DNA of 21,918 nucleotides, taken from a virus. Below, in pieces: positions 3,583 through 18,360 of this stretch. Below the pieces are notes generated by a model that had not been told where the DNA came from, ran no database searches, and worked only from the letters and a program-made list of their open reading frames with translations. The stretch lies in IMG/VR virus record IMGVR_UViG_3300009601_000013, positions 1 through 21,918 of that record, one strand, 5' to 3'. The position numbers and the translations under genes are program-made. Within the stretch, counting starts at the first letter, position 1; each line of letters starts with the position of its first letter.

Positions 3583-4304
3583 AATTTCATCATACAATTT
3601 ATAGCAGTGTGACCACCAATTACTACTCCACAAGCTATAGCTTGTTTTTTAAAGTTACGAGCATAAGCTGCAGCATAGCTGGAACTGTCCACACCACACC
3701 CCACCTGCATCGCAAATACTTTTAGTTTTTTTCCGACCAGCCACGAAACGTAAGCCTCGGTATGAGTATGTCCACAAACACTTGACATCATATTATTTTT
3801 CGCTTTGGTTTTTGCTTGTCCTCCTTCTCCATGCTCAAAAAGTACATCGTCATAGACTATAGTTTCACACCAATTCCATTTAGGAGTGCCTAAGACATCG
3901 TTATAAGACTTTATCCACTCCGAAGGTATTCCACCATTCATTGCCTTCCTTGCAGCCATTCTATCGTGATTTCCTATCAAAACATCAGCGACAGGAAAAG
4001 CTTCGTACCATTCTTGTATGTGTTCTTTTGCAAGTAACAGCTCATTCCCTGGTGAAAGACCAGATGGATCTGGCACATGAAAAGAAAATGCATGATTATC
4101 TAAAATATCTCCAATATAAATTACTTGATTGCAATTGTAATTGGAATAAACTTCTTTACAATGTTCTAAATATCCACTTAGCGTGAAAGGAGCATGAAGA
4201 TCTCCTATGACTAAAATTCTACGTTCTTTTTTGTTTAAGTGTTCAAAAGCCTTTCTTTTGTTTCCAGAAAGTCTCGGTCTAATTTCATCTTCGTTATATT
4301 TCAT
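3579..4304 (-). CDS. Calcineurin-like metallophosphoesterase
   Basis: This 241-residue enzyme has the full metal-binding signature of the calcineurin-like phosphoesterase family in order: GDLH at residues 34-37, GDILDNH at 65-71, GNHD at 111-114, EHGEGG near 157-162 and GHTH at 178-181. These residues normally hold two divalent metals and cleave phosphomono- or phosphodiester bonds; the substrate here is unknown. Family members include protein phosphatases, nucleotide and nucleic-acid phosphodiesterases and polynucleotide-end repair enzymes, and lying at the end of a replication operon suggests a nucleic-acid or nucleotide role (inference). The ATG overlaps the end of the upstream 63-residue gene by 11 bp, and its TGA overlaps the next start (ATGA). 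No signal peptide is visible, so it is cytoplasmic. Confidence 0.9.
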   Translation of the reverse strand: MKYNEDEIRPRLSGNKRKAFEHLNKKERRILVIGDLHAPFTLSGYLEHCKEVYSNYNCNQVIYIGDILDNHAFSFHVPDPSGLSPGNELLLAKEHIQEWYEAFPVADVLIGNHDRMAARKAMNGGIPSEWIKSYNDVLGTPKWNWCETIVYDDVLFEHGEGGQAKTKAKNNMMSSVCGHTHTEAYVSWLVGKKLKVFAMQVGCGVDSSSYAAAYARNFKKQAIACGVVIGGHTAINCMMKL

Positions 4305-4485
4305 CTGTTAAGGATTGAATTAAATCAGCAAGAATCTTTATCAAATTTTGAGCTTTCTTTTTTGCCTCTTCGTGGTCTCTCTCCATTAAATCTTCATATA
4401 ACTCATCACCAAAGTCGTGAATACTGTTAGAAACATAATTAATGTGACTAATAGATTGTACGTCTTCTTTAGCAACTCTGGGCAT
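4294..4485 (-). CDS. Small helical hypothetical protein
   Basis: This 63-residue protein is not recognised. Its C-terminal half, rich in Glu, Lys and Ala and then Leu and Ile, should form an amphipathic helix or short coiled coil. It sits directly next to the DnaA domain IV-like gene upstream (0 bp between that stop and this start) and overlaps the phosphoesterase start by 11 bp, so it is translated in the same polycistronic message. No membrane segment or metal-binding motif is seen. Confidence 0.65.
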   Translation of the reverse strand: MPRVAKEDVQSISHINYVSNSIHDFGDELYEDLMERDHEEAKKKAQNLIKILADLIQSLTDEI

Positions 4486-4914
4486 TTATTTTAGATTCTT
4501 TAGTTCTTTCATTTCTTGTTTGAGTTGGGTTACTGTTAAAGATAACAAACTATTTGACTTTTCCAAATCCATTATTGTTTTTTTTATTAACATTAAATCA
4601 ACGACTTCTAAACTATCATCGAACATGATTTCGTTTTTTTTGAACAAGTTTAAACAAGTGTCATATTTTAAACCTATAGCTGGTTTAAATTTAATCATAT
4701 AAGGATATTCTTTTATGCCATGCATAATGGTTGCGTGTTTTTTTAAAAAATGTTTACCAATCTCGGTATAACCCATATGAAATTCTTTGCGCATTATAGT
4801 ATAACATGTAGCTCTTGCTTCTATAGTTTCTGTTTCTCTGTTTTTATTATCTACATTAACACCAAACACATTGTTGGCTATATTTTTTAATCTGTTAACT
4901 TTATTTACACTCAT
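4486..4914 (-). CDS. Stand-alone DnaA domain IV-like DNA-binding protein with C-terminal coiled coil
   Basis: Residues 32-70 match the C-terminal DNA-binding domain of the replication initiator DnaA: an EARATCYTIMRKE helix, then YTEIGKHFLKKHATIMHGIK. The last part corresponds to the DnaA signature where a conserved DHTTVMHA-type helix enters the DnaA box. There is no Walker A or AAA+ region; the protein is only 142 residues and continues into a Leu/Lys/Glu-rich coiled coil (about 103-142) that could dimerise. It therefore cannot be a complete initiator. It may bind phage origin or operator sequences, or compete with host DnaA for its boxes (inference). It lies in the replication operon downstream of the VRR-NUC gene and overlaps the previous gene by 14 bp. 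A second such protein lies at 11542-11838. Confidence 0.8.
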   Translation of the reverse strand: MSVNKVNRLKNIANNVFGVNVDNKNRETETIEARATCYTIMRKEFHMGYTEIGKHFLKKHATIMHGIKEYPYMIKFKPAIGLKYDTCLNLFKKNEIMFDDSLEVVDLMLIKKTIMDLEKSNSLLSLTVTQLKQEMKELKNLK

Positions 4915-5233
4915 GTGATTTTATGTATAAATTTAAATTTATTAAATCTAAGTATTCATCCATTGATATTTCTTTAATATCTGTGAAGGTCATATACTCA
5001 GAATCTGGTCTGACAATTTCAATAGCAAAAAATATAGGATCTTTGTCATACATTATAGTTCCTCCTAAAATATAAGAAACTAAATTGTTAGATGCAACTT
5101 CTATTTTAGTTTCTTCTAAATACTCTGCGATTTTTAAAGCAATTGGTAAATCAAATTCATCTTGTAATGCTTCAAGAAAAAAATCAGCTATATCATATTC
5201 TTTATCCTCTATAAACTTCTGTCTTGACTCCAT
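4901..5233 (-). CDS. Acidic hypothetical protein in replication operon
   Basis: This 110-residue protein is not recognised. It is strongly acidic in its first half and predicted mostly helical, with a central hydrophobic strand region (VSYILGGTIMYD, about residues 53-64). The single plausible ATG at 5233-5231 overlaps the end of the VRR-NUC gene by 32 bp, a longer overlap than usual here but with no better in-frame start soon after it. Its end overlaps the DnaA domain IV-like gene by 14 bp. Acidic phage proteins in replication clusters are sometimes DNA mimics or inhibitors, but nothing specific in the sequence shows this. Confidence 0.65.
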   Translation of the reverse strand: MESRQKFIEDKEYDIADFFLEALQDEFDLPIALKIAEYLEETKIEVASNNLVSYILGGTIMYDKDPIFFAIEIVRPDSEYMTFTDIKEISMDEYLDLINLNLYIKSHECK

Positions 5234-5441
5234 GTTTTTTTAATTCTTTTAATCTATACTCCTGTATAGGAGAAACTTTGCCCTTAGGTTTTTTAACCTC
5301 ACTAAATAAAACACCACAATTAGGTGGAATAGCTACAAGGTCTGGTATACCATTTTTGTTTGTTTTAATTAATTTTATAACATAATACCCTTCAGATTCT
5401 AATTGTTTTATTCTCTTAGCTTGAATTTGTTGTTCTGTCAT
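5202..5441 (-). CDS. VRR-NUC domain nuclease
   Basis: This 79-residue protein is essentially a bare VRR-NUC domain (a PD-(D/E)XK nuclease family). The active-site pattern is clear: GIPDLVAI at 31-38 with catalytic D34, then EVKKPKG at 48-54 with E48 and K50, and the family's downstream glutamine in SPIQEYRL (Q60). Stand-alone VRR-NUC proteins are common in phages, often beside SNF2-type helicases as here, and their family has structure-specific or Holliday-junction nuclease activity in studied members. The start lies 2 bp after the SNF2 helicase stop, so the two are surely co-translated. A role in processing branched replication or recombination intermediates is inferred from this pairing. 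Confidence 0.88.
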   Translation of the reverse strand: MTEQQIQAKRIKQLESEGYYVIKLIKTNKNGIPDLVAIPPNCGVLFSEVKKPKGKVSPIQEYRLKELKKHGVKTEVYRG

Positions 5442-5443
5442 AT

Positions 5444-6676
5444 TTAATTTAAAGTTAATAAATCTCTTTTAAAATGGCTTAGTGTGTAATCTTTTTTCTT
5501 TATAACTGCTTTGTAAATGTCTTTTTCTATACCACCTTCTGCAAATATCCAATAAACATCACTTTCTAACCTTTCTTTAGTAGTCATTCTATCTCTTGAT
5601 TGCCAGTAACTTGTAGCTGAAAAATCTATATTATAATACACCAAAGCTTTAGCATTTTTTAAACTAATTCCTTCTCTTCCACTAACTATTTGTAAAGCAA
5701 TAGTTTTATTTGTAGAGTTAAACTCACTTAATTCTGTACACAATCTATCTCCATAAACTTCTTTTAAAGATTTAAGCTCTTGTTTAAATTTGTAAAAAAT
5801 ACCGATTTTTACATCACCAAAGTTGTCATTAATAAATTGAGCTTTGCTTAAATCTAAGATCATAGAATTACCTGACTCAAACTTTACTGTTCCTGAATAA
5901 ATTTGATGTAATTTCATCATTAGTTTAACTGAAGTATCAGCCAATATAACATCCTCATTACCTTCCACAACTAAATTTTTCTTTAATTTGTTTGCTAACT
6001 CATAAGTAATAGGATTCATTTTTACCTCTAAAACGTGTTCTTTTGTTTCTACTTTAAATCCAGCTTCTTTTTGAGTATACGACAAAGTGTAAGGTTGCAT
6101 TTTATGTGTAATAGATTTAAGACCATCGCTATAATCTCTGACACTAAATCCACCAATTGGCCTAATTTTTACTCTTACGTAATCTTCAGCAAATTTATAA
6201 AAACTTTTGTATAAATTAAACGGATTTCTTGGTATAGCATAAACTTGATGATATAGTTGACTGTAAGACTCAGGAGTTGGCGTACCTGAGAGTAATATTA
6301 CATAACATTTGTTTTTAAGAATAAGACTCTTTACTTGTTTAGCTCTTTTACTTGGTTTAGGAAACGCTCCCATACAATGAGCTTCATCAAGGACAATCAT
6401 ATCCCATCCTTTTTGATCAATTTTGTGTAGAGACTCGTAATTAATAACAGTAATATTGTAAGATGGTTTTAGTAAGTTATAATCCTCTTCAATACTACTT
6501 ATTGCTTTCTTTTTAGTAATAAATAAAAGGTTTGATACTGGCAAAAGCTCACTAACACCCAAGCTCGTGAGAGTTTTACCAGTACGCACCTCCATTGCAA
6601 GATACACAAATTTGTGAGCCTCCAACACAGGTAAAGCTTTATTTATTATTTCTATTTGATAGTTTCTAAGCTTCAT
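5444..6676 (-). CDS. SNF2-type superfamily 2 DNA helicase/translocase
   Basis: This 410-residue protein has the motifs of a compact SF2 helicase. Walker A is MEVRTGKT at residues 28-35, the DEAH box is at 97-100, and SGTPTP (motif III) at 130-135. The C-terminal RecA lobe ends with VSGREGISLKNAKALVYY and YWQSRDRMTTKER (about 355-367, motif VI with its arginines). The order and the QSRDR motif point to the small phage SNF2-like group rather than DEAD RNA helicases. Such proteins use ATP to move along double-stranded DNA and are thought to act in replication restart or recombination. The ATG overlaps the primase-helicase stop (ATGA) and the VRR-NUC gene follows after 2 bp. No nuclease domain is fused, so the neighbouring VRR-NUC may supply it. 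Confidence 0.9.
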   Translation of the reverse strand: MKLRNYQIEIINKALPVLEAHKFVYLAMEVRTGKTLTSLGVSELLPVSNLLFITKKKAISSIEEDYNLLKPSYNITVINYESLHKIDQKGWDMIVLDEAHCMGAFPKPSKRAKQVKSLILKNKCYVILLSGTPTPESYSQLYHQVYAIPRNPFNLYKSFYKFAEDYVRVKIRPIGGFSVRDYSDGLKSITHKMQPYTLSYTQKEAGFKVETKEHVLEVKMNPITYELANKLKKNLVVEGNEDVILADTSVKLMMKLHQIYSGTVKFESGNSMILDLSKAQFINDNFGDVKIGIFYKFKQELKSLKEVYGDRLCTELSEFNSTNKTIALQIVSGREGISLKNAKALVYYNIDFSATSYWQSRDRMTTKERLESDVYWIFAEGGIEKDIYKAVIKKKDYTLSHFKRDLLTLN

Positions 6677-9084
6677 AGTTTTAACATTCCGTTTGACTCT
6701 TTGCTATGTAGGTTAACAAATCTAATCCACTTCCCAACTGTATCTCTTCCCTCTTGTGGCTCACAACTATACTTATACACTGCGTAAGAGTTTAACCATT
6801 TGTAAAACCTTGTTCTACTTATAGTCATTTTACCACGTGTAGACCTATCAGGGTTTTCTTCAACAAAATCATTATACAAATCATTTTTATATATCTTACA
6901 ATCAAATTTTAATTTATCTTGTGGAATTGAAGTTCCAATAATACCACACCATTCAATAAAATCATAACCTGTTTTCGCAGATAGTTTTCTTATTTTTAAA
7001 TTAACAAATTCACTTTTTAATAAACCTTCCTCAAGATACTTTTGCAGGTTGTGTATCATGTAGTTATCAAACTGACACCATTCAGCATCATTCCACTCTC
7101 CAAACATTAATCTTCCAAATTCTACTAAAGGTGTAAATTCTTTTGTGTAATGTTGTGCTAATTCTAATTCCCACTTTCTTCTTTCAAAACTTGTACCTTC
7201 TCCACTTATAGCGTAGTTAGTAGTTATAGCAATCTTAGGAGATTTAGAAAATGGAATTCGTATAGCATCACGATTCTTTTTTTCCAGCATTAAACCCTCT
7301 GTAATTACACTAAACAATCTTTCAAAGTCAAAGTATTTTTTTACATCATCAAAACATAATATTTGAGTATCAGCAGAAACAGTTTGATAAGCAAAACTCT
7401 TTTCAAAATTAAAAGACTTACCATCAATAAATACTAACTTTTTCATATGACTTAATGCATTCATAAATAAACCTTTACCTGTTCCACCTTCAGGATTGTC
7501 AGTTATAACTTCATCATTTAAAATTACTGCTGGACAATAAGCTAAGTTTTTCCATCCATGAAGCATGTATCCAATTGTGGATTCCATAGACTTTATTCTT
7601 GATGAGTCTTTGCCACATATGTTTTCTATAAAAGTTTTGTAATTACATTCGCCTACTTCACATAAGTCAAAATCTCTATCTATAACATGATCTTTCCAAA
7701 CGTATCCTCCTAAATCTATGTAATCAATCGTGCTTATGTTGTTGTACTTGATGGAAACTGCACAATTTCTATAATATAAATATGCAGTATCTTTTGTATC
7801 CTCAATAAAAAACACATTAATTGATGAAAGTAGAGTTAAAAACTCTTCTCTAAAATATCGTGTGCATTCTGCAAAATAATTATAAATGGTATAATCATCA
7901 ATTTCTAATAAATAACTTAAAATATAATCTTTAATTTCTTTTTCAGAAGTGTGATCAATTAAGTTATTGGTTACTCTTACAAAAACATAATTTTTACTTC
8001 CCTCTGGATTAAACTTGTAAAACCCATTGTCTTCAAGAAAGTTCTTAAATAAAATATGAACTATTTTAATTGTTCCTTTTTCATTCTTACTCCAAAAGAT
8101 ATTGTTGTTATGTTCTTCTTCTAATTTGTTTATGACACTTTCAATTACATTGACCTCAATATTATCATCAGCTAATTGAGATCTAATTTCTTTTTTTGTG
8201 ACTCCACTCAATAGTTTATGTTTTATAAGATTTACTTTTTCTTCATCCTCATAAAATTTTGTTCCAAAGTTTTGTTTTTGTGAGTAAGCAGATTTAATAG
8301 TCCTCATAACTTCTGAATTAGGAAAACTTTTTGAAGCAAATGAAGTCATAATATACTTAGCTAAATTTTCATTTACACCAAAATCATTAAATGCTGCTGC
8401 TAAAATGTATGCGTTGTTGTTACGTTCTCCAGCTATCATTCCATATTTTTTCTCCCACCATTTTAATAATATTTCTACTATTTTATTTTCATCCGTTACA
8501 GGTATAGTAACTACACCTTGTGTTTTAGAAACCTCTGTGTACTCTTGTTCAATAATTTTATCCCATAAACTTGCTTGTTCATTGGTATAAATTAAAGGAT
8601 CATAAGATTCATAACATACTCTTGATATATTTTTTGATGTAGTATCAAAGTATTCTGAATCAAAATGCTTTTCTAAAGAATAGAAATAATTTTTGTGGTT
8701 TATTATATCAGTTGGTATTTTAATTAAAACTTTTAAACCTTTACCACTTGGACTTATAAATACTGAATAAACATAATTGTCTTTAGATATTTTTTCTTTT
8801 TCTTGTAGTAAAGCTTTTGTTGTTTTGTACCCATCAAAATCTAAACAAATAAGACCTGAATGTTCTATTAAAGATGTATCGTTTCTTTTTGTAAATTTGC
8901 CACTGAAACAAATTGCTGGTAATGACTGTTTTAAAACATTTCTTTTTGTCTTGTCTGATTCTTTCCTTATGGATTTTACTAACTCTTTTGTTGCACCTTC
9001 TTGAATTCTCGCTAAGACTACTTCAACCTCTCTATAAAAGGGTTGAGAAGTGTTTTTAATGTCTTTAAATATTGTTATTTCCAT
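6673..9084 (-). CDS. Primase-helicase: BT4734-like primase domain plus SF3 (D5-like) helicase
   Basis: This 803-residue protein is the central replication enzyme of the window. The N-terminal domain has LDFDG at 81-85 and SPSGKGLKVLIK at 111-122, the pattern of BT4734/BF3469-type (VirE N-terminal-like) domains related to archaeo-eukaryotic primases. Residues about 215-275 (GERNNNAYILAAAFNDFG) look like the helical PriCT-type linker. The C-terminal part is an SF3 helicase: Walker A NPEGGTGKG near 528-536, Walker B ILCFDDV near 573-579, sensor/motif C IAITTNYA near 617-624, and an arginine-finger segment SFERRKWELEL just after. It should unwind DNA and prime synthesis at the phage replication fork. 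It is the first gene after the iteron region at 9087-9263 and its ATG directly abuts the repeats. Bacteroidota-type primase architecture is one reason for the host assignment. Confidence 0.88.
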   Translation of the reverse strand: MEITIFKDIKNTSQPFYREVEVVLARIQEGATKELVKSIRKESDKTKRNVLKQSLPAICFSGKFTKRNDTSLIEHSGLICLDFDGYKTTKALLQEKEKISKDNYVYSVFISPSGKGLKVLIKIPTDIINHKNYFYSLEKHFDSEYFDTTSKNISRVCYESYDPLIYTNEQASLWDKIIEQEYTEVSKTQGVVTIPVTDENKIVEILLKWWEKKYGMIAGERNNNAYILAAAFNDFGVNENLAKYIMTSFASKSFPNSEVMRTIKSAYSQKQNFGTKFYEDEEKVNLIKHKLLSGVTKKEIRSQLADDNIEVNVIESVINKLEEEHNNNIFWSKNEKGTIKIVHILFKNFLEDNGFYKFNPEGSKNYVFVRVTNNLIDHTSEKEIKDYILSYLLEIDDYTIYNYFAECTRYFREEFLTLLSSINVFFIEDTKDTAYLYYRNCAVSIKYNNISTIDYIDLGGYVWKDHVIDRDFDLCEVGECNYKTFIENICGKDSSRIKSMESTIGYMLHGWKNLAYCPAVILNDEVITDNPEGGTGKGLFMNALSHMKKLVFIDGKSFNFEKSFAYQTVSADTQILCFDDVKKYFDFERLFSVITEGLMLEKKNRDAIRIPFSKSPKIAITTNYAISGEGTSFERRKWELELAQHYTKEFTPLVEFGRLMFGEWNDAEWCQFDNYMIHNLQKYLEEGLLKSEFVNLKIRKLSAKTGYDFIEWCGIIGTSIPQDKLKFDCKIYKNDLYNDFVEENPDRSTRGKMTISRTRFYKWLNSYAVYKYSCEPQEGRDTVGKWIRFVNLHSKESNGMLKL

Positions 9085-9086
9085 TT

Positions 9087-9120
9087 TATGTTGATTTTAT
9101 GTTGATTTTATGTTGATTTA
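9087..9120 (-). repeat. Three tandem iterons TATGTTGATTTT abutting the primase start
   Basis: Three copies of TATGTTGATTTT/A start at 9087, 9098 and 9109, an exact 11-bp period, about one helical turn. In the direction of the primase-helicase gene they read AAAATCAACATA and end 2 bp before its ATG. A fourth, degenerate copy in the same orientation is at 9172-9183 (TATGTTGAAAAT) and an inverted copy at 9252-9263. The same motif with the same period recurs at 16257-16279 upstream of groEL. Phased direct repeats next to a replication gene fit initiator iterons or an operator that autoregulates the replication genes. Confidence 0.75.
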
Positions 9121-9262
9121 ATTTTTAGTAAGTTATTAGTTATTAGTTATTTAACTATATTACTTACTTTTTATGTTGAAAATTAGTTAATATAATTAAT
9201 AAATAAAAATAAAAGAGATAGTAATATTTATATAATATAGTATAAGGCTAAAAAATCAACAT
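9121..9262. other. AT-rich noncoding region upstream of primase-helicase
   Basis: This stretch has no credible gene. It is almost entirely A and T, with runs such as TTAGTTATTAGTTATTTAAC (direct TTATTAGT repeats at 9132-9150) and TATA-rich segments, plus the degenerate and inverted iteron copies at 9172-9183 and 9252-9263. Low duplex stability beside iterons is what a replication origin's unwinding element would look like, but a promoter region is equally possible. I see no clean TAnnTTTG promoter on the minus strand here. Confidence 0.5.
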
Positions 9263-9287
9263 AAAAAAAGAGGCCATTAGCCTCTTT
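9263..9287 (-). terminator. Rho-independent terminator after the recombination genes
   Basis: Read on the minus strand, AAAGAGGC (9287-9280) pairs perfectly with GCCTCTTT (9274-9267) around a 5-nt loop, giving an 8-bp stem that continues into a run of T residues (9269-9263). It lies 53 bp beyond the stop of the SSB-like gene and should end, or partly end, the upstream leftward transcript before the primase-helicase operon. The stem is symmetric, so weak plus-strand activity (TTTCTTAC tail) is possible. Confidence 0.85.
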
Positions 9288-9297
9288 CTTACAATTC

Positions 9298-9328
9298 AGT
9301 ATATAATCCCAAGTCTTTACTATATACT
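9298..9328. repeat. Inverted repeat AGTATATA...TATATACT
   Basis: AGTATATA at 9298-9305 is the exact reverse complement of TATATACT at 9321-9328, with a 15-nt spacer. It sits between the SSB-like stop and the terminator. It could be an additional 3'-end RNA hairpin protecting the message or a protein-binding palindrome; the AT-only stem is weak as RNA. Confidence 0.45.
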
Positions 9329-9339
9329 AAATTTAATTA

Positions 9340-9603
9340 TTAAAATGGTAAATCTGGATCAGAAGCTTCTACATTATCTGAAGCAGTTTCAGTAGCTTGT
9401 TTGTTGTATGGCTCTTGTAATTTACAAGAAAAATACTTTTTCCCAGCTTTGCTTGTTGTTAACCACGCAGACACTTGGAAATCATTTCCATTTAAATCTT
9501 TGCCATTACCATTGTAATGTGGTTGATTGTTTTCTGCATTTTGATTTTCGTTTTTAAACAAAGAAAATGTTCCTGGTTTAATTTCATAGGTTGATTCATT
9601 CAT
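9340..9603 (-). CDS. Small single-stranded DNA-binding-like protein with SSB-type C-terminal tip
   Basis: This 87-residue protein has a single beta-rich core: GTFSLFKNE at 11-19, then NGNGKDLNGNDFQVSAWLTT (about 31-50) and SKAGKKYFSCKLQEPY (51-66). This resembles the short OB-fold-like proteins often annotated as DUF736-type or SSB-like in phages. It ends in an acidic tail, EASDPDLPF, whose DPDLPF closely mimics the DDDIPF tip through which bacterial SSB recruits repair and replication proteins. Following the exonuclease and ERF annealase genes, it probably coats ssDNA for the phage recombination system and may contact host SSB-binding partners. It is the last gene before the terminator at 9263-9287. 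Confidence 0.7.
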   Translation of the reverse strand: MNESTYEIKPGTFSLFKNENQNAENNQPHYNGNGKDLNGNDFQVSAWLTTSKAGKKYFSCKLQEPYNKQATETASDNVEASDPDLPF

Positions 9604-9605
9604 AA

Positions 9606-9773
9606 TTATTCTTTTATTTTAATTGTTTGTTCCAATTCATTTATTGTTGATATGATAATATTTGTTTTATCATTTATACTATTTGCAGACATTGGAACTT
9701 GAATCCACATAGTAGTATTTTTTTCTGTTAAGCTAATTCCTAACTTATTCAAAATTTGTTTAAAGTATTTCAT
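9606..9773 (-). CDS. Small hypothetical protein between exonuclease and SSB-like genes
   Basis: This 55-residue protein is not recognised. I place the start at the ATG 9773-9771 (MKYFKQILNKLGISL), which overlaps the exonuclease end by 14 bp. The open frame extends to 9833, but that leader lies entirely inside the exonuclease gene. The sequence is helical with an isoleucine-rich C-terminal part and no known motif. The 2-bp gap to the SSB-like start shows co-translation with the recombination genes, so it may be an accessory of that module. Confidence 0.6.
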   Translation of the reverse strand: MKYFKQILNKLGISLTEKNTTMWIQVPMSANSINDKTNIIISTINELEQTIKIKE

Positions 9774-10500
9774 AATGAATATATTGGTTAATGTTTTCCT
9801 TAGAGTCCTTTGAAAAGAAGCTGTTGTACACATTTAAGGCTCTTTCTACCTTTTCCCTACCCCTTTGTAGGAATTCAGGAGAAGGTGCGTATATGCCAAG
9901 CTGATGAGTTATTTTGTCTACTACATAGAATTCTAAAGGTTTTCCAAATAACTCTTGATACAAAAACGCTTGTGAATCATAATTATATTTAGATGCTGAA
10001 AATCTAAATTTTCTTATATCCGAACTTGTTTTAATGTCAATAATTTTATCAGGAGTAATAATGTCTGCTTTACCTTTCCAAGTAAATCCCATTATTTCTT
10101 TAATATTTGGAACTTCATATTCATTCTCAAAATTAAAAATACTATTTGCCATTTCTGTGTTGTTCTTCAGAACTGCAATTATTTTATCCAAATTTTCTTT
10201 TTCTTTACTTAACAACATCATTTCGTTGTCGTTTTCCAAAAGCATTTCTTTGTATAACTTAGTATTTCTACTTGATACATCAATAATTTTAAAGTTATCC
10301 AATTTATGTTTTTCTAAGATAGCAGTATGAAAATATCTGCCTTCTAACATTGCTTTGGTTTGTTCTTTGTCTTTTCTAAAAGAAGAAGGATCGTTTAATA
10401 AAGTATATATATCTGAATTTGATAACCATTGTTGGCCAAATTTCCCATAATACAATTTATCATCTTTAAGCTTCTGTATATTTATATTTTTATCTATCAT
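9760..10500 (-). CDS. RecE-like PD-(D/E)XK exonuclease (DUF3799 type)
   Basis: This 246-residue protein has the pattern of the PD-(D/E)XK exonucleases related to RecE/exonuclease VIII. There is an N-terminal GRYFHTAILE motif (54-63, the G...H helix), acidic ENEYEV near 125-130, KADII with D146, DIKTS with D155 and K157, and the later Q177 in YDSQAFLYQ that marks the RecB/lambda-exo-like group. Such enzymes resect double-strand ends to leave ssDNA for an annealase. The ATG overlaps the ERF gene stop (ATGA at 10497-10500), so exonuclease and annealase are made together, as in Red/RecET systems. It is shorter than full RecE and contains only the nuclease domain, as is usual in phages. Confidence 0.87.
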   Translation of the reverse strand: MIDKNINIQKLKDDKLYYGKFGQQWLSNSDIYTLLNDPSSFRKDKEQTKAMLEGRYFHTAILEKHKLDNFKIIDVSSRNTKLYKEMLLENDNEMMLLSKEKENLDKIIAVLKNNTEMANSIFNFENEYEVPNIKEIMGFTWKGKADIITPDKIIDIKTSSDIRKFRFSASKYNYDSQAFLYQELFGKPLEFYVVDKITHQLGIYAPSPEFLQRGREKVERALNVYNSFFSKDSKENINQYIHYEIL

Positions 10501-11141
10501 GATTTTAAGGCTTTAGACAATTGTTTCTTAACATCTGTAGAAATAGTGTACTTAAAGTTTAGTTTTTTCATTATAACACTTAATGACTTTCCTTTAGCAT
10601 CTTCATGGTTGTTCATGTAATCAACTACTTTATTCCAATTTTTATCTTTAAATTCTAAAGGCACTATCTCAGTTTCTGTTATTATAGCTTCAGAAGTATC
10701 TAATTGAAAATCAGTAACAAGTCTTTTAAATTCTTTAGAATCAGGAATTGTTTTCTTTGGTGTAGTTGTATATGCTTTAGCATCTGTATCAGCATCACTT
10801 ATTATACCTAAGATTGAAGACAACATATATCTCCTAAAATATGTAATACCACTTCCTTTTGATTGATGTGCATTCATGCCTTTCATTGGGGATTCTGGAA
10901 TCACTGCGTGTGATTTAAGACTCTCGCCACTTGGATGATGAAACACAATTGTAGTTAATCCATCTTCTTCAATTAATTGTGTAAACCCTAAATTATACTT
11001 TTTTAATAAAGGATTGATTTGTGCAATAATATGGTCAAGTTTGACGTACTTGTACCCATAACCATCTGTTTCTTTTAAAAGAACAGGACAATTTTGCTGA
11101 AAATCAGCAAGTGCTTTAAAAATGTTTTTTTTGTTTTCCAT
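10497..11141 (-). CDS. erf: ERF family ssDNA annealing protein (recombinase)
   Basis: This 214-residue protein has the hallmark of ERF-type single-strand annealing proteins. The N-terminal domain runs to about residue 120 and ends in GSGITYFRRYMLSSILGI followed by DADTDAKAY, the characteristic motif that in the family lies at the end of the core fold. The N-terminal FQQNCPVLLKETDGYGYKYV and the phrase GFTQLIEEDGLTTIVFHHPSGE are also family-like. ERF proteins anneal complementary strands without ATP and help recombine or circularise phage genomes. The C-terminal 90 residues are variable and probably a partner-binding domain. The exonuclease gene overlaps its stop, and the SSB-like protein follows, forming a complete recombination module. 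Confidence 0.9.
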   Translation of the reverse strand: MENKKNIFKALADFQQNCPVLLKETDGYGYKYVKLDHIIAQINPLLKKYNLGFTQLIEEDGLTTIVFHHPSGESLKSHAVIPESPMKGMNAHQSKGSGITYFRRYMLSSILGIISDADTDAKAYTTTPKKTIPDSKEFKRLVTDFQLDTSEAIITETEIVPLEFKDKNWNKVVDYMNNHEDAKGKSLSVIMKKLNFKYTISTDVKKQLSKALKS

Positions 11142-11146
11142 TTGTT

Positions 11147-11545
11147 TTAATTTAATTGATTTAATTTTAATTTATGTTTAGCATATTTATTCATTACATT
11201 ATCTCTACGAGTTTTTAAATTCTGAATATGCTTGTCGTTTTTACGAGTGTTCATCTCTTCCTTCATTCTTATTTCTATAAGATTTAATTTAAAATTACAG
11301 TTATTTAAAGCTATAAGTAAAACTCCTTTTTTCCAACCATTGTTAAAAAAATAGGAGTACTCCATATTATTCATTTCTCTGTAATAATCTCCACCCTTTG
11401 AGCAATTTAATATTTCAGTTTTGCTGGGAAACCTTTGAATTTTTACACCAAGTTTTATTATAAACTCTCCTTTTTCGACTTTACTCTTAGCTGAAGATCT
11501 ATCACTTGATGCTTGTTCAAATATTTCATCTATAGTAAAAATCAT
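11147..11545 (-). CDS. Hypothetical protein with basic C-terminus
   Basis: This 132-residue protein is not recognised. The first half is mixed; the second half (about 90-132) is rich in Lys, Arg and Asn and predicted to form a long basic helix, which would suit nucleic-acid contact. Its ATG overlaps the end of the DnaA domain IV-like gene by 4 bp (ATGA-type) and the ERF start follows 5 bp after its stop, so it belongs to the same polycistron. No catalytic motif is seen. Confidence 0.65.
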   Translation of the reverse strand: MIFTIDEIFEQASSDRSSAKSKVEKGEFIIKLGVKIQRFPSKTEILNCSKGGDYYREMNNMEYSYFFNNGWKKGVLLIALNNCNFKLNLIEIRMKEEMNTRKNDKHIQNLKTRRDNVMNKYAKHKLKLNQLN

Positions 11546-11838
11546 ATTTCTTCATTAATTTTATCGATCATTTGTTCAAAATCTTTATCTGAATCAATTA
11601 ATGCTTTTGCTTGTTTATATCCATGTATAATAGTAGAATGAGCGATTTTACATCCATTATCTTCCATAAACTTCTGGACATAAGACACTCTAATTGGTCT
11701 TTCTAAACACAAATAGTATAACAATTGTCTTGCATCAACTAAATCTCTTCTTCTTGATTTATCAAACATCTCATCTAAATTTAAATGAAATTGTTTTGCT
11801 ATTGCGTGTGCGTACTTATCAAATATTTCTCTCTTCAT
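11542..11838 (-). CDS. Stand-alone DnaA domain IV-like DNA-binding protein
   Basis: This 98-residue protein consists almost only of a DnaA C-terminal-like domain. KSRRRDLVDARQLLYYLC (28-45) matches the first helices after the linker, including the conserved basic turn and the ARQLLYYL helix. IAHSTIIHGYKQAKALI (65-81) matches the signature helix that reads the DnaA box (DHTTVMHA in cellular DnaA). The AAA+ ATPase and domain I are absent. It may recognise a phage-specific box, recruit the primase-helicase, or regulate host or phage initiation; none of this is shown. It differs from the 142-residue protein at 4486-4914, which carries a coiled coil. It overlaps both neighbours by 4 bp. Confidence 0.85.
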   Translation of the reverse strand: MKREIFDKYAHAIAKQFHLNLDEMFDKSRRRDLVDARQLLYYLCLERPIRVSYVQKFMEDNGCKIAHSTIIHGYKQAKALIDSDKDFEQMIDKINEEI

Positions 11839-15459: not shown

Positions 15460-15490
15460 CAAATATAGTTAATAAGTATGTATAAAGCAA
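15460..15490 (-). promoter_or_regulatory. Bacteroidota-type promoter for the leftward block
   Basis: On the minus strand a -33 TTG (15490-15488) is followed after exactly 20 bp by TATATTTG (15467-15460), a perfect match to the TAnnTTTG -7 box of Bacteroidota housekeeping promoters. Transcription should start near 15453, about 45 nt before the ATG at 15409. It is the only clean promoter with both boxes on this strand and is well placed to drive the genes leftward to at least the terminator at 12190-12215. Confidence 0.82.
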
Positions 15491-15915
15491 GTTTCTTTGT
15501 CTTTATATGCTTACACACAGTTGAGGACATATAGTAATTAGCTGGGTATCACTTAGTTACGTAGCTTGATTAAAGCTTTACTTTCACAGTCTTTTGTTTA
15601 GGTTTTACCTGGGTCGCACTATGACTAAGGGAAGGCTCTCCCTTTCTCTATATAGTAGAGGGGGGAAGGGATGCGTAGCGATCGTGGATCAATACGTGCA
15701 TTAGGTAGGGATAACAGTACGTATAATACAGAGGTAGCTGTGCTTATAGGTACTGCCAGGCTGCCAGGCTGCCAGCAAATAAAAAAGGTAAAACATTTGC
15801 AGAAAAAAGTTCATGTGTTCCTCTAAAGCTGTCACAATATGACTTTGGAATTTGGGGGGGTCAACCGTATATCCTATAATAACCCTATACCCCTGGGCAT
15901 CTAAAAAAATTTTAT
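15491..15915. other. Divergent noncoding region, GC-enriched and hairpin-rich
   Basis: This 425-bp region between the divergent transcription units has no credible gene. Bases about 15600-15780 are much richer in G and C than the rest of the window. It holds: GGTATCACTTAG at 15545-15556 (an inverted match to the intergenic hairpin elements); AAGGGA/TCCCTT pairing near 15628-15645; a long imperfect hairpin centred on CTCTA-TATAG-TAGAG near 15646-15660; an imperfect ATGCGTA/TACGTGCAT inverted repeat (15671-15701); the CTGCCAGG repeats (15753-15775); and a run of seven G near 15855. It may be a replication origin, a small structured RNA or a control region. No tRNA fold was found. Confidence 0.55.
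15753..15775 (+). repeat. Tandem 8-mer repeat CTGCCAGG (2.9 copies)
   Basis: CTGCCAGG is present at 15753-15760 and 15761-15768 and all but the last base again at 15769-15775. Such GC-rich tandem repeats are striking in an AT-rich genome. They could be protein-binding sites at an origin or a slippage-prone regulatory repeat. Confidence 0.75.
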
Positions 15916-15923
15916 TATCTTTA
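15916..15923 (+). promoter_or_regulatory. Probable promoter -7 box for the 73-residue gene
   Basis: TATCTTTA differs from TAnnTTTG only at the last base and lies 14 bp before the ATG at 15938. The context TTATTATCTTTAC closely resembles the boxes before groEL and the gene at 19694. No clear -33 TTG is seen at the right distance, so this is a moderate call. Confidence 0.5.
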
Positions 15924-15937
15924 CAAAAAATATTAGC

Positions 15938-16159
15938 ATGGACTTAAACAAAGACAAAAAAATTTCTGATAATGTAGAAGGCCTCTACGTACAGAACGGT
16001 AGATTAATTAACGGAAGACCAAATGGTATGTCAGGAATTGAAGAAGCTTCAATGTACAGACAGCAAATGAAAAAACAATATAAGATCGATTGTATCGCTG
16101 ATGGTATTGAAAGAGCTAAGATGAGAATGAGTGGTGACAGGGATATCTTTGAGTATTAA
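15938..16159 (+). CDS. Small hypothetical protein, first rightward gene
   Basis: This 73-residue protein is not recognised. It is charged and probably flexible at the N-terminus (MDLNKDKKISDNVEG), with a short beta-like NGRLINGRPNG turn and a helical C-terminal half containing basic and Met residues (ERAKMRMSGDRDIFEY). It has its own promoter-like box 14 bp upstream and a strong terminator 30 bp downstream, so it forms a monocistronic unit. That separate, probably strong, control suggests that it is needed in quantity or at a different time from its neighbours. Confidence 0.7.
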   Translation: MDLNKDKKISDNVEGLYVQNGRLINGRPNGMSGIEEASMYRQQMKKQYKIDCIADGIERAKMRMSGDRDIFEY

Positions 16160-16256: not shown

Positions 16257-16342
16257 TATGTTGATTTTATGTTGATTTTTTTTTACTTAACTATTTGATT
16301 ACTATTCTTTTATATACTATTTATTACTTTAATGTTGATTTA
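16257..16342 (+). repeat. Iterons TATGTTGATTTT upstream of groEL
   Basis: Two exact TATGTTGATTTT copies at 16257-16268 and 16268-16279 have the same 11-bp period as the three copies before the primase gene, and a variant AATGTTGATTTA stands at 16331-16342. The rest of 16221-16450 is A/T-only in character, with TAGTATAGTAG-type runs at 16369-16400, and contains no gene. The repeats may be an operator coordinating groEL with replication, or part of an origin. Confidence 0.7.
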
Positions 16343-16450
16343 GTAGTATAATTATAATAATAGAATAATAGTATAGTAGTAAAAAGTATAGTAGTAGTAA
16401 AGTGGAAAGAAAAAACTAACATACTAACATGCATTGTAATATTAATTTAT

Positions 16451-16483: not shown

Positions 16484-18103
16484 ATGAGTGCAGCAGGATA
16501 CATTCCTAAAGATGTTTGTTTCGATAATGAAGGCAGACAAAAATTAATAGAAGGTATAACAATTATATCTAAAGCAGTTAAAAGTACACTTGGCCCAGCA
16601 GGGCAAACTGTTTTAATTGAATCACCTCAACATACTAATAATATAACAGTAACTAAAGATGGAGTTACAGTAGCTCGTTCTATAGAGCTTCATGATCCTG
16701 TAGCTAACTTGGCTATACAGATGATGAAAGATGCAGCAAACAGAACTGCTAATGCGGCAGGTGATGGAACTACTACAGCTATTGTATTGACAGAAGCTTT
16801 AATAAATGCAGGTCAGGAGTTAATGACAGACGAGCATAATACTACTGAAGTGTTAAGAGCTATAAACAAACACAAGGAAAAAGTTTTAAACCATTTAAAG
16901 GTTAACTCAAAAAAAGTAAGTAAGAAAAAACTATTAGACGTTGCTACTATCTCAGCTAACAACGACAAGGAGTTAGGTAAGATTATAGCAGAGGCTTATA
17001 ACAAAGTAGGGAAAGATGGAGTTGTTACAGTTGAGAAATCTATGACTGCAGATACTTATTCTGAAGTTACGAATGGTATAAAAATAAACAGAGGGTATAC
17101 TTCTAACTTGTTTATTAATGATCAAAAGAAAGACGAGTGTATTTTAGATGACGTAAAAGTTTTAGTGTGCGATACTGAGATAAGTAATATTTTACAAATT
17201 GAAAATATTTTAAAACCAATTATTAATAATAGTCAGAAACTTTTAATTATAGGAACTTGTACTACCAATGTAATAAATACTTTGGCTGCTAACGTAGTTC
17301 GTAATGGATTAAAGTTTTGTAATATACAGCCACCACAGTTTGGTTACAAGCAACATGAGTTAATGCAGGACATCGCCTTGGCAGTTGGAGCAAAGTATTA
17401 TTCTGAAAAGACTGGAGACGATTTGAGTTTAATGAGTTCTCAAGATTTAGGATCTGTAGATAAAATTATAGTAGGACAAAACTCTACTGTTATTTTAAAA
17501 GACAATATTAGAACTGAGGAAATTAATAATCGTATTAAAGAATTAAAATTTCAACAAGATACCACAACAGATGTTTCGCAAAAAACATTTATAAACGAAA
17601 GGATAGCAAGTTTGTCTGGAGGAATAGGATGTATTTATGTTGGAGGTAACTCAGATGTAGAACAAAAAGAAAAATTTGACAGAGTCGATGACTCTGTATG
17701 CGCTGTGCGCAGTGCAATGCAAGAAGGAATTATTGCAGGAGGAGGACAAGCTCTATGGGATGCATCGGATTCTTTACTTGATTGTAATTGTGGAAACAAA
17801 GATGCAAATGAAATTGTAGCAAAAACAATTTTAATACAAGCTTTAAAATCTCCATTAATACAAATAATAAAAAATGCAGGATTAGATTATGAAAAAATCA
17901 CTGACTTAAATAATATTCCTAAAGACATTTTTATGACACAAAAGAATGTAGGGTACGATGTTAAGAATGAAAAATATGGCGATATGTTTAAGATGGGAGT
18001 TATAGATCCATTAAAAGTTACCAAGCATGCATTAAACAATGCTATTAGTGTAGCAACAACTATTCTAAGTACTAACGCAATAATAACTCATAAAAGAATA
18101 TAA
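16484..18103 (+). CDS. groL: Phage-encoded group I chaperonin GroEL (Hsp60)
   Basis: This 539-residue protein is a full-length GroEL homologue. It has STLGPAGQTV (34-43) in the nucleotide pocket, TKDGVTVA (57-64) and AAGDGTTTAIVL (91-102) with the ATPase aspartates D59 and D94, an apical-domain region with PPQFGYKQHELMQDIA in place of the cellular APGFGDRRKAMLEDIA, and RVDDSVCAVRSAMQEGIIAGGG near 401-421 with the conserved aspartate of the intermediate domain. It ends in AIITHKRI and lacks the Gly-Gly-Met tail of bacterial GroEL. It should fold phage proteins in a double-ring chamber with a GroES cap. groES follows with a TAATG overlap, the reverse of the usual host gene order. It has its own promoter and iterons and is codon-wise AT-rich like its neighbours, so it is not a recent host fragment. 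Confidence 0.95.
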   Translation: MSAAGYIPKDVCFDNEGRQKLIEGITIISKAVKSTLGPAGQTVLIESPQHTNNITVTKDGVTVARSIELHDPVANLAIQMMKDAANRTANAAGDGTTTAIVLTEALINAGQELMTDEHNTTEVLRAINKHKEKVLNHLKVNSKKVSKKKLLDVATISANNDKELGKIIAEAYNKVGKDGVVTVEKSMTADTYSEVTNGIKINRGYTSNLFINDQKKDECILDDVKVLVCDTEISNILQIENILKPIINNSQKLLIIGTCTTNVINTLAANVVRNGLKFCNIQPPQFGYKQHELMQDIALAVGAKYYSEKTGDDLSLMSSQDLGSVDKIIVGQNSTVILKDNIRTEEINNRIKELKFQQDTTTDVSQKTFINERIASLSGGIGCIYVGGNSDVEQKEKFDRVDDSVCAVRSAMQEGIIAGGGQALWDASDSLLDCNCGNKDANEIVAKTILIQALKSPLIQIIKNAGLDYEKITDLNNIPKDIFMTQKNVGYDVKNEKYGDMFKMGVIDPLKVTKHALNNAISVATTILSTNAIITHKRI

Positions 18104-18360
18104 TGAAAGCAATAGGTAAGTTTATAGTAATAAAAGCAATAGAGGAAGAACTAAAAACAGATTCAGGTTTATTGTTATCTGCAGAAGATGCTAATAGTTT
18201 TAGATATAGAAAAGGAATTGTTATAACTCCTGGATCAGGAGTTACTGTAATTGAAAAGGATAATGTAATATACTATGATCGTAACGCAGGGCATGATATG
18301 CTATTGAAAAACGAATCAGTTACTATTATTCAAGAAAGAGATGTCGTTGTAGTTTTATAA
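18103..18360 (+). CDS. groS: Phage-encoded co-chaperonin GroES (Cpn10)
   Basis: This 85-residue protein has the Cpn10 pattern: a KAIGKFIVIKAIEEE first strand (like PLGDRVVVKR), a mobile-loop region with DSGLLLSAED (about 21-30) where GLLL stands for the hydrophobic IVL tripeptide that binds GroEL, a VITPGSG turn, DNVIYYDRNAGHDM matching GDKVLFGKYAGTEV, and a final IIQERDVVVVL matching LRESDILAVL. It is shorter than the usual 95 residues, chiefly around the roof loop. The one-base overlap with groEL ensures matched expression. It should cap the phage GroEL, possibly also host GroEL. The last 35 bp are antisense to the end of the minus-strand gene at 18326-18790. Confidence 0.9.
   Translation: MKAIGKFIVIKAIEEELKTDSGLLLSAEDANSFRYRKGIVITPGSGVTVIEKDNVIYYDRNAGHDMLLKNESVTIIQERDVVVVL

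Follow-up and report, generated by a model that had tools for sequence, protein, structure and literature searches.

Paired stand-alone DnaA domain IV proteins and conserved iteron arrays in an aquatic phage family, with a possible reader of altered DnaA boxes

Introduction

Two genes in a stretch of 21,918 bases from a virus record (the whole of the DNA analysed, here called the window) encode proteins that have the fold of DnaA domain IV without the ATPase, an assignment that we regard as confirmed. These proteins, A and B, are encoded on either side of a recombination and replication gene block, and tandem 11-bp iterons bearing the word ATC(A/G)ACA stand in the leaders of the primase-helicase and groEL genes. 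We propose that B may be an origin- or operator-reading protein acting on these iterons, with the SF3-type primase-helicase of the phage, a reading that we hold at slightly less than even confidence. Stand-alone DnaA domain IV proteins have been annotated in phages before; the less ordinary feature is the arrangement, a conserved flanking pair together with iteron arrays.

Gene content and orientation of the window

A minus-strand gene run from ~15.5 to 3.2 kb comprises A, ERF, exonuclease, SSB-like, primase-helicase, SNF2 helicase, VRR nuclease, B and metallophosphatase genes, A preceding the ERF and exonuclease genes and B following those of the primase, helicase and nuclease; groEL and groES lie on the plus strand, opposite to this run (Table 1). 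An earlier note on this DNA, made from the letters alone, had placed two DnaA domain IV-like proteins around recombination and primase genes. That placement is borne out, since the pair flanks the whole ERF/exonuclease/SSB-like/primase/SNF2/VRR-nuclease block and is conserved there in relatives; the note gave its coordinates without a strand, and stop codons interrupt the plus strand throughout both intervals, the open reading frames being those of the minus strand. Distant matches of the primase are mostly from Flavobacteriia phages, which makes a Bacteroidota host likely for the virus of the window.

Several further features were recorded. The groEL and groES genes (16484-18360) are carried by many members of the phage family. 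An 887-aa plus-strand protein (313-2976) is without a Pfam match. The long strand-switch stretch at 15490-15938 has no recognised gene and contains a G-rich run and about three copies of CTGCCAGG (15753-15775). An Rfam scan returned nothing at gathering thresholds.

Table 1. Positions of genes and sequence elements discussed in the text (window coordinates)
Feature	Position	Strand	Basis or remark
Small conserved protein immediately following B; second boundary of the B slot	4294-4485	-	Synteny
Gene B, 142 aa: DnaA domain IV standing alone (residues ~4-96), followed by a C-terminal helix (104-141)	4486-4914	-	Pfam, AlphaFold2, structure match, family profile against PDB
Conserved small protein directly before B; marker of the B slot in relatives	4901-5233	-	Synteny
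VRR-NUC nuclease	5202-5441	-	Pfam, PHROGs
SNF2/DEAD-like helicase	5444-6676	-	Pfam, PHROGs
Primase-helicase: BT4734-like N-terminal domain, PriCT-1-like, DUF5906 (SF3-type, GGTGKG motif)	6673-9084	-	Pfam
Tandem triplet of 11-bp iterons (ATGTTGATTTT, or AAAATCAACAT when read in the primase sense)	9088-9119	+	Triplet stops 3-4 bp short of the primase start codon
Very AT-rich stretch between iterons, AGTTATT x3	9120-9250	.	Sequence, tandem repeat
Partial iteron TTTTTATGTTGA, reading TCAACAT on the opposite strand; lies in AT-rich DNA of the primase leader	9168-9179	+	Sequence
Fourth exact iteron, inverted, just past the terminator T-tail	9253-9262	-	Exact-copy count
Hairpin resembling an intrinsic terminator, at the end of the A-ERF-exonuclease-SSB-like run	9264-9290	-	Sequence
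Small SSB-like protein, acidic DPDLPF C-terminal tail	9340-9603	-	Inferred; no Pfam match above cut-off
PDDEXK/exonuclease VIII-like nuclease	9760-10500	-	Pfam, PHROGs
ERF-family single-strand annealing protein	10497-11141	-	Pfam, PHROGs
Gene A: nearly bare DnaA domain IV, 98 aa	11542-11838	-	Pfam, AlphaFold2, structure match, profile
groEL-leader iterons: ATGTTGATTT at 16258, 16269 (11 bp apart) and 16332	16258-16341	+	Exact-copy count; conserved in relatives
Phage groEL; second iteron array in its leader	16484-18103	+	Pfam
groES-like gene	18103-18360	+	Match to annotated chaperonin 10 kd gene of MW202828

Proteins A and B retain the DnaA box-reading fold without the motor

Both proteins exceed the curated cut-off of the Pfam model Bac_DnaA_C (PF08299; 31.5 bits), B with 34.4 and A with 37.0 bits, and a six-frame scan of the whole record yielded two genes scoring 35.2 and 34.6 bits and no third match to this model. 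AlphaFold2 gave confident models (mean pLDDT 86.1 for B and 92.1 for A), for which the best matches among solved structures were all DnaA: Z-scores of 14.9, 14.1 and 12.6 for B, with the first unrelated row at 6.4, and of 14.8, 14.7 and 14.2 for A, with the first unrelated row at 5.5. The top match superposed at 1.7 Å over 93 residues for B and 1.9 Å over 93 residues for A, DnaA-DNA crystal structures were among the top matches of both (Z ~14-15), and Foldseek likewise placed the two models with DnaA domain IV far above other folds. Profile comparisons concur: the B-family profile matched E. coli domain IV (E=2e-8) and A. aeolicus DnaA (1.2e-8) in the PDB, the A-family profile matched DnaA structures by sequence alone, and the two family profiles aligned with each other at an hhalign probability of 97%. 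A sequence search of the PDB also matched A to PPR proteins, an assignment rejected as a designed-repeat artefact; the top of the fold search was DnaA only.

Scored with the full-length DnaA model TIGR00362, the two proteins reached 24.6 and 38.6 bits, far below its cut-off of 343.9, and AAA+ ATPase domain III is absent from both, the 142- and 98-aa proteins matching domain IV only. The earlier description of two stand-alone DnaA domain IV-like proteins, neither having an AAA+ motor, thus stands after the HMM search and the structure comparison that it had itself suggested; the predicted folds are those of DnaA domain IV, and a helix-turn-helix is present at the two HG segments of A and B. Residues 104-141 of B are modelled as a single 38-residue helix, in keeping with the coiled coil that had been noted there. 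In the models, the turn before the recognition helix is longer in A (residues 61-66) and of normal, short length in B.

Residues of DnaA that contact bases were listed from PMC7561715 and PMC5043019, D433 and L438 being assigned to box position 7 (PMC8235120). When 56 B representatives were aligned to E. coli DnaA numbering, H434 was kept in all 56, R407 in 54/56, R399 in 48/56, T436 in 52/56 (Ser otherwise) and H439 in 47/56, while the equivalent of D433 was mostly Asn and that of T435 mostly Ala. The contact residues of A were judged from alignments alone. Covariation between the variable A/G position of the iterons and residues of B gave no clear rule beyond kinship.

Iterons in the primase and groEL leaders

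Exactly seven copies of ATGTTGATTT occur in the window, four in the primase leader and three in the groEL leader (0.21 expected; seven reached in 0/100 shuffles), and all of them fall within the two repeat regions that the earlier note had named, 9087-9263 and 16257-16342, which are accordingly real. An element TTTTCAACA(T/C) in close relatives corresponds to the partial iteron of the window, and the groEL-leader iterons point the same way along the window as the primase-leader triplet. The layout is that of an iteron-type origin, with several regularly spaced direct repeats adjoining a replication gene and AT-rich DNA, and the AT-rich stretch is a candidate unwinding or promoter region. GC skew singles out no origin; it tracks gene orientation and, as it follows the strand switch of the genes, is confounded for origin placement.

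The window shows no enrichment of canonical DnaA boxes (18 versus 17.4 expected at one mismatch; 0 exact), nor any excess of host-type box clusters (TTWTNCACA or TTATCCACA). By the rule for the unwinding system of DnaA box and DnaA-trios (BUS), a DnaA box is followed within ~16 bp by at least three trios (TAG, on one strand; PMC8287927). TAG/CTA runs that recall such DnaA-trios lie between the iterons and groEL only in the window (16374-16396) and in L065, L070, L071 and L130, where their distance and strand vary.

The wider survey, for which further relatives were gathered via the primase, drew on environmental contigs, many of them incomplete, and on exact-word counts, which miss degenerate sites. 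A count of 7-mers in 41 non-redundant leaders, which assumed nothing about DnaA, returned ATCGACA as the most enriched word (36 versus 1.1 expected), with ATCAACA also in excess (29 versus 3.7); the same leaders contained ATCCACA 0 times and TTWTNCACA once. Each of the two enriched words differs from the DnaA-box core ATCCACA by one mismatch, at the same position in both, and the repeats therefore look like altered DnaA boxes, the likeness being one of a 7-base core with that single mismatch. Among the B-bearing genomes of a larger set, 56 primase leaders held 68 ATC(A/G)ACA sites (3.9 in shuffles) and 22 groEL leaders held 29 (2.0 in shuffles), with no enrichment of ATC(C/T)ACA in either. Site density was 8.5 per kb in the 120 bp nearest the primase start and 4.9 per kb ahead of groEL, compared with 0.41 per kb across the loci; spacing was mostly 11 bp and orientation nearly uniform. 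In 15 long genomes, most clusters of at least three sites lay in or near the primase and groEL leaders, a few others being found elsewhere, at 47.2 kb in G001, 44.6 kb in W01 and 24.9 kb in G033; several B-bearing genomes of this set, and 3/3 of the B-less ones, were without a cluster of three exact sites.

Other elements of the leaders were also considered. The word GATTTACC, enriched in B-less leaders and considered as a replacement iteron, proved to be coding sequence for the SSB-like tail DLPF-stop, and enrichment of ATATATA was attributed to the low complexity of AT-rich leaders. ARAGORN found no tRNA in two B-less leaders where one had been suspected. In several clades an imperfect inverted repeat (AACTnATAATCAnnnAGTTA-like) was seen by eye between two iteron groups, at about -45 to -80 from the primase start.

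An array before the primase start, downstream of a terminator and next to an AT-rich stretch, fits an iteron origin or an operator, and both may be true. The groEL array adds weight to regulation, and we consider operator function nearly as likely as initiation. A stricter form of this alternative, in which A and B would be transcription regulators only, the iterons operators of the primase and groEL operons, and the origin elsewhere, seems to us a genuine but rather doubtful possibility. It is consistent with the location of both arrays in gene leaders, directly before the primase start and ~130-250 bp before groEL, with the terminator just upstream of the primase leader, with the helix-turn-helix fold, and with the second role of DnaA itself as a transcription factor (PMC8203912). 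The densest array, however, marks the primase of the replication operon and adjoins an extended AT-rich tract, in the manner of iteron origins, and the groEL array is oriented the opposite way relative to its gene, so that no one operator geometry suits the two arrays.

Distribution of the gene pair and of the sites among relatives

Two Bac_DnaA_C matches occur in 21 of 36 long records, with gene order kept, and A is present in nearly all genomes of the family. When leader clusters were classified by the B slot, 56 had B, 16 had the slot without B and 9 were not judgeable, the A-B pair thus being kept in 56/72 clusters with a judgeable slot. Most B-less clusters have the slot closed to 20-49 bp, and other small open frames occupy it in L128, L139, L161/L162, L172 and L179; those of L128 (~10989-11340), L161 and L179 encode a different small, possibly HTH protein (sub-threshold HTH_24, E=0.011).

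At least one site stood in the last 120 bp before primase in 33/56 clusters with B versus 2/16 without (Fisher p 0.0014, ignoring kinship), and a site preceded groEL in 13/22 versus 1/10 (Fisher p 0.019, likewise ignoring kinship); exact sites were missing from this 120-bp primase interval in about 40% of the B-bearing clusters. B changes only ~5 times on the primase tree, a number with which an independent-pairs test cannot decide, and since B was lost only about five times the phylogeny does not prove a link between B and the iterons. The tendency of site loss to go with loss of B is nevertheless suggestive of B as the iteron reader.

The iterons might alternatively be read by another protein, namely A, the primase-helicase or the small HTH-like proteins of the B slot, with B directed at something else. 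L128 is without B and retains three sites, its close sister L127 having B, so that B may not be the sole reader; A, moreover, occurs in nearly all genomes and has the same fold, and another small, possibly HTH protein fills the slot in some B-less genomes. We nonetheless judge this alternative unlikely: a ten-member B-less clade keeps A and primase and is devoid of sites in the final 120 bp of the primase leader, which argues that neither suffices to maintain the arrays, and it is B that keeps most DnaA base contacts and the short turn, whereas the turn of A is longer.

Of the two strategies that the earlier note had offered, distinct initiation remains plausible, whereas interference with host DnaA has no support, canonical boxes not being enriched in the window and ATCCACA being absent from the 41 leaders. 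That A and B might occupy DnaA boxes of the host oriC and stop host replication is conceivable insofar as a protein with the fold of the host box reader and no motor could be a dominant-negative binder, but we consider it very improbable, because the host box core and the repeats disagree at a fixed position, most B members have other residues in place of D433 and T435, and the arrays lie in the phage genome, nothing in the sequence pointing to a host origin.

A possible mechanism

Taking B as the reader of the iterons, we envisage that it would bind the tandem 11-bp altered DnaA boxes in the primase and groEL leaders and, having no motor, would mark the site only, possibly oligomerising through its C-terminal helix. 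Opening and unwinding of the strands would then fall to the primase-helicase, encoded directly downstream of the iterons; the GGTGKG residues of its DUF5906 region, which we take to be an SF3-type motor, are invariant in 13 relatives. As arrays stand at two gene leaders, the same binding would probably also regulate expression of primase and groEL. A, the more divergent relative, probably has a different target. The folds, the conserved gene order, the excess and placement of the iterons and the retention of most contact residues are observed; we infer three steps in this scheme: that B is the reader, that its binding starts replication, and that it recruits the primase-helicase.

A motorless reader beside a motor with no obvious reader suggests a split initiator. 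The DnaA box-reading domain would here have become a separate phage protein acting on re-specified boxes and passing the site to the SF3 primase-helicase, with no need of a DnaA- or Rep-type ATPase initiator, and the second DnaA domain IV protein, encoded at the operon's opposite end, would have a separate role. We put this forward tentatively, as somewhat improbable in its full form.

Comparison with known systems

With DnaA domain IV (Bac_DnaA_C, PF08299; structures 1J1V, 3PVP and 8BTG), A and B share the fold, Arg/Lys residues of the basic loop and the His of the recognition helix; they differ from DnaA in being without domains I-III and in the repeats linked to them, ATC(A/G)ACA rather than ATCCACA. 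Proteins of the same kind occur in the Flavobacteriia phages hattifnatt, tooticki, snusmum and mumin, Olleya Harreka_1 and Cellulophaga phi19:3, cultured phages of Flavobacterium, Olleya and Cellulophaga being among their carriers; the existing annotation there reads "DnaA protein" or "bacterial DnaA helix-turn-helix protein", and stand-alone DnaA domain IV proteins are also found among many viral models of BFVD. These Flavobacteriia phages differ in having one such gene annotated per stretch read, and scans of four of these unrelated genomes (hattifnatt, tooticki, Harreka_1 and phi19:3) found no ATC(A/G)ACA clusters, so that the pattern does not carry over to them.

The nearest annotated genome is that of Podoviridae sp. 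ctfjg026 (MW202828), a 60,850-bp circular genome from Manatee Spring with a primase 66.5% identical to that of the window. It shares two DnaA domain IV genes flanking an exonuclease/primase/helicase block, groEL/ES, and TC(A/G)ACA in both leaders; it differs in that its A is 37% identical, its B is longer (189 aa) and far diverged, and a thymidylate synthase gene lies near B.

At the iteron origins of plasmids and lambda-type phages, an initiator protein binds tandem repeats. The arrays described here resemble them in the spacing of their tandem repeats, about one turn of the helix, and in their location next to a replication gene and AT-rich DNA; they differ in that the candidate reader has a DnaA domain IV rather than a Rep or lambda O fold. 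Primase-helicases of the P4 alpha type carry an origin-binding domain of their own. The present system resembles these in joining a phage primase to an SF3-type helicase, and would differ in having the origin read by a separate protein.

Biological significance

Small "DnaA C-terminal" proteins without a known job occur in many phages, and a search of the open-licence literature turned up no study devoted to stand-alone DnaA domain IV proteins of phages. This family offers them a concrete target that can be tested, a short array of altered boxes standing at a set position before primase and groEL. If the binding is true, it would give these proteins a function, define the origin or a master operator of a widespread aquatic phage group, and provide an example from nature of a DnaA reader whose specificity has moved off the host box. 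The gene pair and its associated iterons thus suggest that a family of aquatic phages may start or control its replication with a motorless, DnaA-like reader.
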